Assembly (NCBI GenBank): GCA_021821055.1
Contig: JAKACX010000003.1
Coordinates: 36,156 to 100,155, forward strand
Source of the DNA: Bacillota bacterium
GTDB taxonomy: Bacteria; Bacillota; Bacilli; Alicyclobacillales; SLC66
DNA length: 64,000 bases
Direction: 5' to 3'
Shown: positions 19,276 to 27,017 of the stretch, piece by piece
Layout: each line of letters begins with the position of its first letter
Position numbering within the stretch: position 1 is the first letter of the stretch
The notes under the pieces: model-generated
What the model was told of the DNA's origin: nothing
Database searches by the model: none
The model's input: only the letters and a program-made list of their open reading frames with translations
Program-made: the position numbers and the translations under genes

Positions 19276-21024
19276 TCATTGGACCGCCTCGCCGTAGATC
19301 CCCACGCGATTGCGCCCGGCCTGCTTGGAACCCACGTACATCGCCCGGTCCGCGTTACGCAGCAGGCTCTGCGGGCTGTCCGCCATTTCCGGGTACGTCG
19401 CGACGCCGATGCTGGCCGTCACCCGCACCGGGAGCGCCGCCGTGTTTCCCACCGGCGGCACCGAAATCGGCGTCGCCTCCACGGCCCGGCGCAGCCGCTC
19501 CGCAATCTGCACGCCCGTGTCGATCGACGCGCGCGGCAGAATAATCATGAACTCCTCGCCGCCGTAACGGCAGACCACATCCCGGTCGCGCACCTGGTGT
19601 TTGAGGATCTGCGCCACGCGCTGCAACACGGCGTTCCCCACATCGTGGCCGAACGCGTCATTGACCGACTTGAAGAAGTCCAGATCGACCACGAGCAGCG
19701 ACACGGGCGCCCCCGTCTCGTTCGATTCCGCGCACATCTCCTCGAGAGTCTCGACAAAGTAACGATAATTATACACGCCTGTGAGTTGATCCGTATAGGA
19801 CTGCACCCTCGACTGCTGCAGCTTGCGCGCGTTCCACAGTCCGACCGCCGCCTGCCCCGCGAGAATCTGCGTCATCTTCAGGTCGCGCTTGCAAAAACCG
19901 TTACTCTCCCTGTTCGTCATGACCAGAATCCCCAGTCGATGCTCCTGGTACACGATCGGAACGATGAGGATGGACGGACTGCGCATCCACTCGTCGACAG
20001 TCTCCGGTATACCGGTCAGGGAGCGGGCCGTCCGCCGTTGCAGCAACGGACGCCTGTCGCTGAACTTGCGGCCGATCAGGCCCTCTCCGTCCTGGACGCT
20101 CCAGTTGCTCGCGGCCTCCTCCATGCCCGGAGCGTGCGCGCGCACGACGCTCACGCGCAGGACGCCGAGCTCGTCCGGCAGGAAAAGCACGGCGACGGTC
20201 GCCTGGACCAGATTCGGAACGGTGTCCATGAGCCCCGTGACCAACAGGTCGGCGCTCAGATCGCGGTTCAGCTTGATGGACGCGTCGCTGATCGCCGACA
20301 GTTGTTGATTGGCGATCAAGAGATCGGAGTATATCCGAAATCCGATCAGGCCGATCACAAACGCGCCGAACGCCGCCGGGAACCAGTCCGGGCCGTACGC
20401 GTGCAGGACGATGACAAAGACCCAGGCGAGCAGCAGTTCATTGACCGCGGCGATCAGTTCCCAGAGCACTCCCAGGGGCGACAGGCTTCCGCGGGCGCGT
20501 CCAAGCAGGTGCACGAGGCCCCGCGTCATCAGAAAATTCACCGCCGTTCCCGTCACAAAGAAGGCTGTCACCGGCCAGACGACCCGCCCGAGAGGCGTGG
20601 ACCAGTCGTCGGGCATCAGGGTCCCTCCCGCCAGGTGGAACGCCAGCGCGGCCCCCAGAGCCATCAGGGTGTAAACGGCAAAATTCATCAGCACGCGAAA
20701 CCAGCCCAGGTGCCTGCCCATGACCACCTGGCTCGCCATCCACGAAACGAACGCGAGCAGGACGGCCAGCACCACGCCGAACTGAAGGAACAGCGGGATG
20801 ACGACGCTCAGCACCACGCTGGACCACTGCTCGCCGAGACGCACGGGAAACGCCCAGGCGATGAGGAGAAGCAGGAAATAGGCCGCGAGGAGCAACCAGT
20901 GTTCCCCGGTCGTCGGCCACAAGGGCGGCCGCCGGACGGCGCACCAGACGAGCAATACTGCAGCGAGACTGGACAACACGGCCGCGATTGTGAGAAAGCT
21001 CGCGTGGATGCGCTGCGCCGCCAT
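19276..21024 (-). CDS. Membrane diguanylate cyclase with GAF-like and GGDEF domains
   Basis: Multi-TM N-terminus, central GAF-like region, C-terminal RYGGEEFMIILPRA with upstream RDRD. Confidence 0.92.
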   Translation of the reverse strand: MAAQRIHASFLTIAAVLSSLAAVLLVWCAVRRPPLWPTTGEHWLLLAAYFLLLLIAWAFPVRLGEQWSSVVLSVVIPLFLQFGVVLAVLLAFVSWMASQVVMGRHLGWFRVLMNFAVYTLMALGAALAFHLAGGTLMPDDWSTPLGRVVWPVTAFFVTGTAVNFLMTRGLVHLLGRARGSLSPLGVLWELIAAVNELLLAWVFVIVLHAYGPDWFPAAFGAFVIGLIGFRIYSDLLIANQQLSAISDASIKLNRDLSADLLVTGLMDTVPNLVQATVAVLFLPDELGVLRVSVVRAHAPGMEEAASNWSVQDGEGLIGRKFSDRRPLLQRRTARSLTGIPETVDEWMRSPSILIVPIVYQEHRLGILVMTNRESNGFCKRDLKMTQILAGQAAVGLWNARKLQQSRVQSYTDQLTGVYNYRYFVETLEEMCAESNETGAPVSLLVVDLDFFKSVNDAFGHDVGNAVLQRVAQILKHQVRDRDVVCRYGGEEFMIILPRASIDTGVQIAERLRRAVEATPISVPPVGNTAALPVRVTASIGVATYPEMADSPQSLLRNADRAMYVGSKQAGRNRVGIYGEAVQ

Positions 21025-23284: not shown

Positions 23285-23503
23285 CTAGAGGGGTTTTTCC
23301 TGTGCCAGCGCAAGTTCCGCGAACGCCACCAGCTTCCTCGTCATCTGTCCGCCGACCCGTCCGGCGTCTTTTGTCATGACCTCGCCCCAGTAGTCTTCGC
23401 TGCCCTGGAACACCGGCAGTCCCAGCTCGGACGCGATCTCGTACTTCATGTCATCCAGCGCCTTGTGCGATCCCTTGATGATCTGTGTGAATCCGCTCGC
23501 CAT
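23285..23503 (-). CDS. Small acid-soluble spore protein, alpha/beta type
   Basis: 72 aa; EIASELGLPVFQGSEDYWGEVMTKDAGRVGGQMTRKLV. Confidence 0.92.
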   Translation of the reverse strand: MASGFTQIIKGSHKALDDMKYEIASELGLPVFQGSEDYWGEVMTKDAGRVGGQMTRKLVAFAELALAQEKPL

Positions 23504-23773
23504 GACGACCACGCTCCTTCCTGCAGAGTGTCTTGTTGCGACACGCATATTGTGCACCGCCGCGCGGCGTGTCAGGACGTTAGATTTTGTCGCATTCACC
23601 CCGGATCTTCAATGGAATCGAGCCCGTCCGCCGCCCCCTTGCGCCCCTCGCCGCATCCGTCTGACGGCGCGCGGGCGCGGGCTTTGCGCCCCGTGAACGG
23701 CGCCGCATACAGACGGCGCGGACGCGTGCCGGAGTGGATTGCCAGCCAATAAGCGGTTCGCCGTCCGGCTCCC

Positions 23774-24499
23774 TCAGCGCCGCCGTTCGCGCGCCTCGTT
23801 CCAAGCGCGCCAGGCAAACAGCGGCAGCGCGAGCTGGCGCTTGAAACGGCGCGGTTCCTTCACGAGGCGGTACAGCCATTCCAGGTGGGCCCGACGCCAC
23901 ACTAGAGGCGCCCGCTTCACCGTGCCCCCCAGGATGTCGATCACGCCGCCGATGCCCATGGCAAGCGGCGCCCCCAGGCTCTCCCTGTGCTCCCGAATGA
24001 ACAGGTCCTGCCGCGGCTGGCCCAGCCCCACGAGCAAGAGGTGCGGCGCGAACGACCGCACAGACTCGACGACCAACGGGATGTCCGCGGCGCCAAAATA
24101 CCCGTTGCGTCCCGCCGCCTGCACGCCCGGATAACGGGCGCGCACTGTCTCGAGCGCCTTTTGCAGGGAATCCTCTGCGGCGCCGAGAAGGAACACCCGC
24201 AAGCCGTGCCGCGCGGCGTATGCCAGCAGTCGTTCCGTCAATTCCGCCCCCGTCACCCGCTCCGGCAACGGCTCACCGTACCAGCGCGACGCAATGACGA
24301 CGCCCACGCCGTCGGCCGTCACAAGATCGGCGGCGGCGGCGGCCGACCGCAAGTCCCCGCGCTGCTGAGCGGCCATGACAAATTCCGGCCCGGCGGTCAA
24401 CACGACCCGGTTCCCATCGCCCTCCATGTAGGCAACGCAGCGCGCGAACGCCTCATCTTCGCTGACGTGGGCGAAATCGATGCCGAGGATCGATACCAT
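23774..24499 (-). CDS. WecG/TagA/CpsF family glycosyltransferase
   Basis: LTAGPEFVMAAQQ..LVTADGVGVV.., LLVGLGQPRQDLFIREH, GIGGVIDILGGTVKRAP. Confidence 0.95.
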   Translation of the reverse strand: MVSILGIDFAHVSEDEAFARCVAYMEGDGNRVVLTAGPEFVMAAQQRGDLRSAAAAADLVTADGVGVVIASRWYGEPLPERVTGAELTERLLAYAARHGLRVFLLGAAEDSLQKALETVRARYPGVQAAGRNGYFGAADIPLVVESVRSFAPHLLLVGLGQPRQDLFIREHRESLGAPLAMGIGGVIDILGGTVKRAPLVWRRAHLEWLYRLVKEPRRFKRQLALPLFAWRAWNEARERRR

Positions 24500-24846
24500 T
24501 TACGAATTCACACGCTTTCCATCGTGGAGATGCACTGCCCCAAGCTACAAACAAAGAACCGAACATCCACGGGGGAGTCCGGTCCAGTTTGAAACATCTA
24601 TTGCTTGATAAAAACATATCTCTCAATCTATATATGTCCATCTATAGTCTGCACCCTATGCCCCGAACATACGCTCTGCACTCTAGACACCGCGCACCGC
24701 ATATTTGCTTGCATCGCCACGCTGTGGGGAGAAGGGAACGTGGGGGATTAGTATCCTAGGGGGGACTAGGTTCCGTTCCATTCTCCCTCAGCCGTGACTC
24801 CGAGCGATCCTCTCTCGTGCATCAACCGTCCGTGCGCGACCACTTT

Positions 24847-24942
24847 CGGCAGCCCGGCCATCGTAGCGGCTTTCGCCCAAGGCGTCACCCACTCGTAGAT
24901 CCGAGGCTTTGCGTCCCTGCCTTTCGGCAGGTTTGCCTTTAT
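24847..24942 (-). ncRNA. Cyclic di-GMP-I (GEMM-I) riboswitch
   Basis: Minus strand ATAAAGGCAAACCTGCCGAAAGGCAGGGACGCAAAGCCTCGGATCTACGAGTGGGTGACGCCTTGGGCGAAAGCCGCTACGATGGCCGGGCTGCCG matches the GEMM-I consensus (GGCAAACC, GAAA tetraloop hairpin, GGGACGCAAAGCC, ATGGCCGGGCTGCCG). Confidence 0.93.
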
Positions 24943-24963
24943 CGAGAGGCCTCTCTGGTGCCC

Positions 24964-24992
24964 ATTATACGACCTTCGACAACATTTGACAA
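24964..24992 (-). promoter_or_regulatory. SigmaA promoter driving the GEMM riboswitch RNA
   Basis: TTGTCA (24987-24992)-17 bp-TATAAT (24964-24969) on minus strand. Confidence 0.88.
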
Positions 24993-25018
24993 GCTCTGCG
25001 CGAAAAAAATGAGAAAAA

Positions 25019-26005
25019 TCATGGAGTCAACGCCGGGTCAATGAAATCCGTAAAGACAATCGGGTCCGTTTTCGATCCATCGGGATTCTGCGGCGGCGCC
25101 ACATAGCTCTGTCCCGTGGCGTACACCGTACCCTGGGCGTCCTTGACCTGGTACTGGATCTGGAGATTCTGCACGCCCGACACGTCGACCGACACCGCGG
25201 CGGGAGCGGATCCTCCCTGCATCCACGGCGTCTGCGCGAGCGTGACGCCGTCGCCGAGGAAGACGAGGCGCACGGTGCCATTGTAGTTCTTGCTGAGGTC
25301 ATCCACCGCAAACAGGCCCGTGAGTGTGCGGTACCGGCCGCCCAGGTTGTAGTCCAGGCCCGGGATCTTGGACGTCTGGCCGGGCATGATGCCCCATTCC
25401 ACAGTCGACGACCCTGGATACAGTTGGCCAATGACGGTCGCGGGCCACTGGTTGGTCAGCCGGCCGCCCGGGTACAGCGTCGTATTGGCGAAGTCCCCCA
25501 GCAGCGTCGACGGCGTCAGCGCGGTCAGCGCGGTGGCGCCCGCCGGCAGAGAAGATCCGGCAGCGGGCGCAAAGTTTACATTGCCCGCCGTGTCCACCGT
25601 GGTCTTGAGACCGGTCGCCTGCATGTAGGCGGCCGTCGTGGCCGGCACATCGGCGTACGACGTACCGTTCGTCACGCCGCCAGGCAGCGCCGTCCCGTTA
25701 TAGAAGACGCGGAGCGGCTGCGCGGACGGCGGCGCCGTCACCATGACCGCGGCGGGACTGTTCACCCACGCCACGTGCGCCCCGAGGGCGTGGGCAACGG
25801 TACTGATGGGAACATAGACATTGTAGTTGTAGATCATTGGCTGCGCCGTGACCGTGACGGGACGGCCGTTCAGCTGGATGCCAATATTGTCAAATTCGGC
25901 GCGCACCATCTGGACCCCGGTCGACGCGTACGATGCGCCCGCCCACAGCACGGCGCTCGTCGCGACGCCCAGGGCAACGCTCCATTTCGGTTTCACACCA
26001 GACAC
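25019..26005 (-). CDS. Secreted protein with copper-amine-oxidase-N-like domain
   Basis: Signal peptide-like N-terminus; IQLNGRPVTVTAQPMIYNYNVYVPISTVAHALGAHVAW; paralog of the next gene. Confidence 0.8.
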   Translation of the reverse strand: MSGVKPKWSVALGVATSAVLWAGASYASTGVQMVRAEFDNIGIQLNGRPVTVTAQPMIYNYNVYVPISTVAHALGAHVAWVNSPAAVMVTAPPSAQPLRVFYNGTALPGGVTNGTSYADVPATTAAYMQATGLKTTVDTAGNVNFAPAAGSSLPAGATALTALTPSTLLGDFANTTLYPGGRLTNQWPATVIGQLYPGSSTVEWGIMPGQTSKIPGLDYNLGGRYRTLTGLFAVDDLSKNYNGTVRLVFLGDGVTLAQTPWMQGGSAPAAVSVDVSGVQNLQIQYQVKDAQGTVYATGQSYVAPPQNPDGSKTDPIVFTDFIDPALTP

Positions 26006-26033: not shown

Positions 26034-27017
26034 TCAGTGAACGTTCACATTCGCAAAGTCGATATTGACAGCGTAACCCGCGGGCATGGACTGCCCCATC
26101 GCATACACCTTCGCGCCAATCTTGACGGAAAAGCCGATGGTCAACAACCTGACCCCCGACACATCCACGCTCACCGGCGCCGCCGGTTGGTGCAGGCCCA
26201 TCCAGGGCGACTGGTACAACTGCTTGCCGTTCCCCGATACCGTCAGTTGGACCTGCTCCTTGCCGTCCGACGCGTCGTCAAGCCCAAAATTGCCCGTGAG
26301 TTGCGAGTAGTGGCCCTGCAGATTGTACTCCACGCCAGGCACCTGTGAACCGCCCTTTGTCGAAGACGACCACACCAGGCTGTTCGCGTTCGGATACGGC
26401 ACCCCGTCGATGCGGGGCGCCCCGTCAGCCCAGCCGTAGGTCGGTCCCGCGAGTTGCGGGTGGAGCATCGCGTATGCTCCGTAGTCGCGGACGTCGTAGA
26501 ACGCCTGGATCGGCATGCCTGTCGACGGACCGCGGCCGATGTACGCGACGCGCTGGGCGTAGTTCACGTAGTACGGCTCATTTAGCGCTGTCGCAAGAGC
26601 AAAGGCGGACACATACGGATAGCCGCGGTAGTATGCGGTTTGGGTTCCGTTATACACGGGAAGACCGGCGTAATCCATGTTCCCTCGGCGGATCGTGGCG
26701 GGAGGATTCGCGGTCAGTTCCACCTGGCGTTTGGCGTTGTTCCAGGCGACCGACGCCCCCAGGCCATGAGCCACCGTGCTCACCGGCACGTAGACATTGT
26801 GATTGAAGATAAAGGGCTGCGCCGCTGTGTTGATGGTCGTGCCATTCGTGAGCAGCTTGATGTTGGCATAATGCGCGGCAATCGTCATCATGCCCGTGTT
26901 GGCGTACGTCAGACCGCCGAAACAGAGCGCTCCAATGCCGAGACCGGTTACGTACCCCGACAACGTCCGCTTCCATTTTTTCATTGCGCCAGTTCCCTCC
27001 TCCGGCCGACAAGTCAT
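26034..27017 (-). CDS. Secreted protein with copper-amine-oxidase-N-like domain, tandem paralog
   Basis: Signal peptide-like N-terminus; LLTNGTTINTAAQPFIFNHNVYVPVSTVAHGLGASVAW; C-terminal VSVDVSGVRLLTIGFSVK matches upstream paralog. Confidence 0.8.
   Translation of the reverse strand: MTCRPEEGTGAMKKWKRTLSGYVTGLGIGALCFGGLTYANTGMMTIAAHYANIKLLTNGTTINTAAQPFIFNHNVYVPVSTVAHGLGASVAWNNAKRQVELTANPPATIRRGNMDYAGLPVYNGTQTAYYRGYPYVSAFALATALNEPYYVNYAQRVAYIGRGPSTGMPIQAFYDVRDYGAYAMLHPQLAGPTYGWADGAPRIDGVPYPNANSLVWSSSTKGGSQVPGVEYNLQGHYSQLTGNFGLDDASDGKEQVQLTVSGNGKQLYQSPWMGLHQPAAPVSVDVSGVRLLTIGFSVKIGAKVYAMGQSMPAGYAVNIDFANVNVH

Follow-up and report, generated by a model that had tools for sequence, protein, structure and literature searches.

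Among described c-di-GMP-I (GEMM-I) riboswitches, Bc1 of Bacillus thuringiensis has a long expression platform with two terminators and has been studied experimentally; according to its abstract, Bc1 binds c-di-GMP while the genes downstream of it do not respond to c-di-GMP in the cell (PMC11218506). This null response is a reason for caution against assuming regulation in the leader considered here, which lies on the minus strand of the window (the whole stretch of 64,000 nucleotides that was analysed) ahead of a wecG/tagA/cpsF glycosyltransferase gene. We consider it probable that this leader acts on wecG as an attenuator that is linked to Spo0A and modulated by c-di-GMP, and that a hairpin carrying two C tracts (the C hairpin) gives it a further control element.

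Promoter, aptamer and operon in the family

The downstream gene had been named in an earlier note as a WecG/TagA glycosyltransferase starting at 24499, and PF03808 agrees (23774-24499, minus strand; 194 bits, E 2e-57). The comparison covered the 18 genomes available for this family, the window genome being G000; Ferroacidibacillus organovorans (NCBI family Alicyclobacillaceae) is a named relative. All 18 contain a wecG orthologue and, somewhere in the genome, c-di-GMP-I aptamers. The linkage between aptamer and glycosyltransferase that the note had drawn holds in the window and extends to relatives: the aptamer stands directly ahead of wecG in G003-G006, and a LytR-CpsA-Psr gene lies between the two in G009-G013, giving the order lytR-wecG (PF03816, tested in G011). 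In G014 leader and operon are split over contigs and the fragments fit the lytR-wecG arrangement; in G007 a contig end interrupts the leader. This leader contains no aptamer in G001, G002, G008 and G015-G017.

Several neighbouring genes share the minus strand. The product of the gene upstream of the leader combines NPCBM and copper-amine-oxidase N-terminal domains, and two adjacent paralogues of this type occupy 25019-26005 and 26034-27017. Downstream of wecG lies a gene for an alpha/beta-type small acid-soluble spore protein (23285-23599). A GGDEF diguanylate cyclase with a GAF domain (19276-21024; PF00990) is encoded near the riboswitch and is a possible local source of c-di-GMP.

The near-consensus promoter TTGTCA-17-TATAAT is present as previously claimed. 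It is of the sigma-A type, matches 11 of 12 consensus positions (24992-24964, minus strand; -35 at 24992-24987, a 17-nt spacer, -10 at 24969-24964) and is kept ahead of the same operon in 17/17 readable family genomes. Two Spo0A-box-like repeats in tandem, TTGTCAAA and TGTCGAA, overlap its -35 element and spacer at a distance of 10 bp from each other (24975-24992, minus strand). The second repeat (24981-24975) is a perfect copy of TGTCGAA, the core Spo0A box (PMC3485338), so that this promoter contains the 0A-box core that marks Spo0A-controlled promoters. TTGTCA-N5-TGTCGAA recurs with minor changes at fixed spacing in all 17 leaders (G001 and G002 have TGTCGTA at the core position), and the spacing holds in relatives whether or not they have the aptamer. 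Based on these motifs, Spo0A may bind at the wecG promoter, with an effect that could go in either direction.

The GEMM-I aptamer that had been placed after this promoter is found by cmscan at 24946-24844 (minus strand), far above cut-off, and contains all three of the diagnostic sequence blocks. The Rfam check proposed with it carried a wrong accession, RF00051, a slip for RF01051; the latter scores 76.2 bits at these coordinates. The top-ranked Rfam label is RF03167 (c-di-GMP-I-GGC), with 75.2 bits and an E of 5e-16 over the window, and the aptamer exceeds the gathering cut-offs of both families (35 bits for RF01051, 59 bits for RF03167). RF01051 fits equally well. The ligand-contact bases G20 and A47 are present and the GCCG 3' strand places C92, in the numbering of Vibrio cholerae Vc2. 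Where the printed RF03167 consensus has G the window aptamer has A, at position 47 of the V. cholerae numbering. The G47 expected for c-di-GMP-I-GGC, a criterion that is our own reading of the family name and printed consensus, is absent from the window and from all 41 family aptamers examined, each of which has A47. Because of A47, G20, the GCCG 3' strand and the RF01051 score, the c-di-GMP-I-GGC label misleads and the RNA is best classed with the canonical c-di-GMP-I riboswitches; its ligand is predicted from the contact residues G20-A47-C92 to be c-di-GMP.

As the window genome holds seven c-di-GMP-I aptamers in the RF03167 and RF01051 searches, the aptamer alone is ordinary; what the leader adds to this routine part is an RNA element specific to the family, found both alongside the riboswitch and in its absence. 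An eighth RF03167 match in the genome (L008, 27.7 bits) has no RF01051 counterpart and was treated as chance. Four of the same-genome copies (L003, L005, L006 and L007) precede ORFs that, read by eye, resemble a secreted protein, a response regulator, an HD-GYP protein and a GH92 protein, respectively. Position 20 is A in three further aptamers (L090 2182-2259, plus strand; L092 1390-1474, minus strand; L065 1501-1589, plus strand). In other GEMM-I RNAs A20 is known to favour 3',3'-cGAMP.

Intrinsic terminator and switch segment

The earlier description of this leader was right about the aptamer, the strong promoter and the glycosyltransferase, and missed the Spo0A-box-like repeats, the C hairpin and the terminator. 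Its statement that the leader has no obvious intrinsic terminator is contradicted by a hairpin with a U-rich tail at 24585-24547 (minus strand), here called T2. The hairpin, GGACCGGACTCC-CCCGT-GGATGTTCGGTTC followed by TTTGTTTGT, has a folding energy of -14.8 kcal/mol, which the best hairpin reached in 0/300 dinucleotide shuffles of the leader. A simple terminator scanner that accepts perfect stems did not list T2, probably on account of a one-base bulge. T2 lies 48-86 nt upstream of wecG and about 260 nt from the aptamer, and an intrinsic terminator between aptamer and gene is one feature expected of a transcription-attenuating riboswitch. A terminator occupies the equivalent position in the family leaders except in G003 and G008, where a U tract directly follows the C hairpin; in G002 the best-scored structure is larger and overlaps the expected terminator hairpin. 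Among other aptamer copies in the family, 17/30 have a terminator within 60 nt, and termination control is therefore usual in this family.

A possible switch is seen in the 5' strand of P1. In relatives the start of the leader has CCUCCCG, which forms P1 or pairs with a downstream CGGGAGG. In the window the corresponding strand is CCTCTCG (24943-24949, minus strand), which belongs to P1 in the RNAalifold consensus and is complementary to the switch segment CGAGAGAGG at 24817-24809. Both window strands have changed together, a C to U in CCUCUCG being matched by a G to A in the switch segment. The segment is present in all 11 aptamer-bearing leaders, its form in relatives being CGGGAGG or a variant of this with a bulge. 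The switch duplex is better than that of shuffles in G009-G014 (p at most 0.033), and shows no significant gain over shuffles in G000 and G003-G006. Helix switching is here predicted from single-strand folding, according to which, without ligand, the switch helix of the window is 4.2 kcal/mol better than P1; it is also favoured in most relatives, G011 being an exception. Binding of the ligand could overturn this advantage. Comparison of the leaders revealed no conserved antiterminator that would oppose T2. Pairing of the switch segment with a T2 arm, considered as an antiterminator, was not better than in shuffles (p 0.13-0.92).

The C hairpin and its possible roles

The C hairpin is a 61-nt element between aptamer and terminator (24727-24787, minus strand). 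It consists of an outer stem of 13 pairs with one mismatch, an inner 5-bp hairpin with a TCCCCC hexaloop (first C tract, 24760-24765) and a 3' bulge that contains a second C tract, CCCCC (24742-24746); the C columns of both tracts are invariant. When 13 versions were folded separately, all 13 gave the same minimum free energy topology, with an inner hairpin of 5 bp or longer and a (U/C)CCCCC loop whose length departs by one base in two of them. The window version folds with a z of -3.4. MAFFT misaligned the outer stem, and covariation was read from an N-padded alignment fitted to the structure by hand, each sequence of which also folds in this way alone. In this hand-padded alignment 14/15 pairs have two-sided changes and 99.3% of cells pair, versus 76.7% in shuffles; RNAalifold on the unpadded alignment recovers the same helices. 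G-U pairs occur in the stems, which points to the element acting as RNA rather than DNA.

A covariance model found one copy per genome in 14/18 family genomes, always at this operon, and inspection of G014 brings the total to 15/18. The same model found none in 41 sister-family genomes and none outside the family among 400 class members, under the tighter filtering that large searches apply. When 85,462 species were searched for an exact motif, with a pattern that covers only the commonest apex form, seven contigs were returned, six of them from Bacillota MAGs and the other from Ferroacidibacillus organovorans, whose leader at this operon has the C hairpin and no aptamer. Rfam has no match to the C hairpin at E up to 1, the aptamer being the sole match in 24450-25020. 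Judged from sequence comparison, the C hairpin is apparently a new, undescribed conserved RNA element. Promoter and C hairpin are kept without the aptamer in two lineages (G001/G002 and G008), and the C hairpin therefore has a role of its own. A further lineage, g9 (L095, L096 and L097), has neither aptamer nor C hairpin, keeps the promoter repeats and T2, and carries a different terminator-like hairpin in the place of the C hairpin.

This persistence bears on whether the aptamer alone matters, the remainder being a long leader in decay, in which the C hairpin is a simple upstream terminator. The stem does run straight into the U tract of G003 and G008, as such a history would predict, but no U tract follows it in the window, G004-G006 and G013, its apex is conserved far beyond the needs of a terminator, and it outlasts the aptamer. 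We regard this reading as improbable. A general terminator function of the C hairpin was rejected on the missing U tract in the window and several relatives.

The invariance of the C tracts while the stems turn over, together with the single conserved copy per genome, would also suit a free-standing small RNA, some 400 nt long, as the main product; it would end at T2 and pair through its C tracts with ribosome-binding sites rich in G on other mRNAs, wecG being reached by read-through only. GGGGG is found in the ribosome-binding region of about 10% of sampled genes, and the C-rich RsaA of Staphylococcus aureus contacts a Shine-Dalgarno site in the account given in PMC3961350. The constant linkage of the C hairpin to the lytR/wecG operon argues against this reading, as do the other possible uses of C-rich loops, and no target mRNA was identified; it is unlikely, if worth weighing. 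In a bolder version the C hairpin would be the active end of a c-di-GMP-gated, Spo0A-linked trans-acting RNA: termination at T2 would release the leader, and ribosome-binding sites rich in G would be bound by its two exposed C tracts. We hold this to be rather doubtful; if true, the sensing of c-di-GMP, the control of sporulation and the synthesis of the cell surface would be coupled through one transcript.

Alternatively, the C tracts could control translation by pairing in cis with the Shine-Dalgarno site of whichever gene comes first in the operon. Runs of GGGGG or more are present in the ribosome-binding region of that gene in G001, G002, G004, G005, G006, G009 and G013, against a background of GGGGG in 11 of 109 genes. 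The run is absent in the window, where wecG has none at ribosome-binding distance from its ATG, and in G003, G007, G010-G012 and G014. Cis pairing is very unlikely here, and as a general mechanism it was discarded, failing in the window and several relatives. LoaP, a specialised NusG paralogue, works on hairpins of leader RNA that precede terminators, and the C hairpin, so placed, could be imagined as its loading site for processive antitermination. This is extremely unlikely, as at most one NusG-domain protein was found in each of the 18 family genomes, including hairpin carriers; the LoaP reading was dropped because no paralogue was detected.

Working model and comparison with described systems

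The computed parts of the leader, namely the aptamer, the C hairpin, the terminator, the conserved promoter repeats and the complementarity of the switch segment, can be assembled into the attenuator that we favour. This would be a regulatory leader of about 450 nt for a wall or exopolysaccharide gene. The transcript would begin just 3' of the sigma-A-type promoter with its two Spo0A-box-like repeats, and its first RNA domain would be the canonical c-di-GMP-I aptamer. The P1 5' strand CCUCUCG would pair instead with CGAGAGAGG, and ligand would be expected to swap the helices. Next would come the C-rich stem-loop, independent of the aptamer and probably bound by a protein or another RNA, and last T2, which would set the amount of transcription that reaches wecG. 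c-di-GMP may thereby change read-through at T2, and the C hairpin may influence T2 as well. The sign of each regulatory effect is something we infer, and we lean slightly, for physiological reasons only, towards c-di-GMP raising wecG expression. The operon apparently combines a c-di-GMP switch with a second RNA device at one cell-surface locus, to which Spo0A control is possibly joined. The leader is a tractable natural test of multi-signal integration in acidophilic Bacillota, in which little RNA regulation has been described.

Compared with known RNAs, the C hairpin resembles small RNAs of the S. aureus RsaA type in being C-rich, a loop-loop contact to a target mRNA being reported for these in PMC3961350; it differs in lying within an mRNA leader, and the likeness is put forward as one of composition, not of sequence or structural homology. 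With Bc1 the leader shares a c-di-GMP-I aptamer, a long expression platform and intrinsic termination, whereas the two Bc1 terminators are 28 bp apart and the Bc1 abstract mentions no C hairpin. Like other GEMM-I riboswitches of RF01051, the window RNA has the aptamer fold, G20-A47-C92 and a score far above cut-off; unlike them, it lies in a leader of great length, where a further conserved RNA element separates the aptamer from the terminator.
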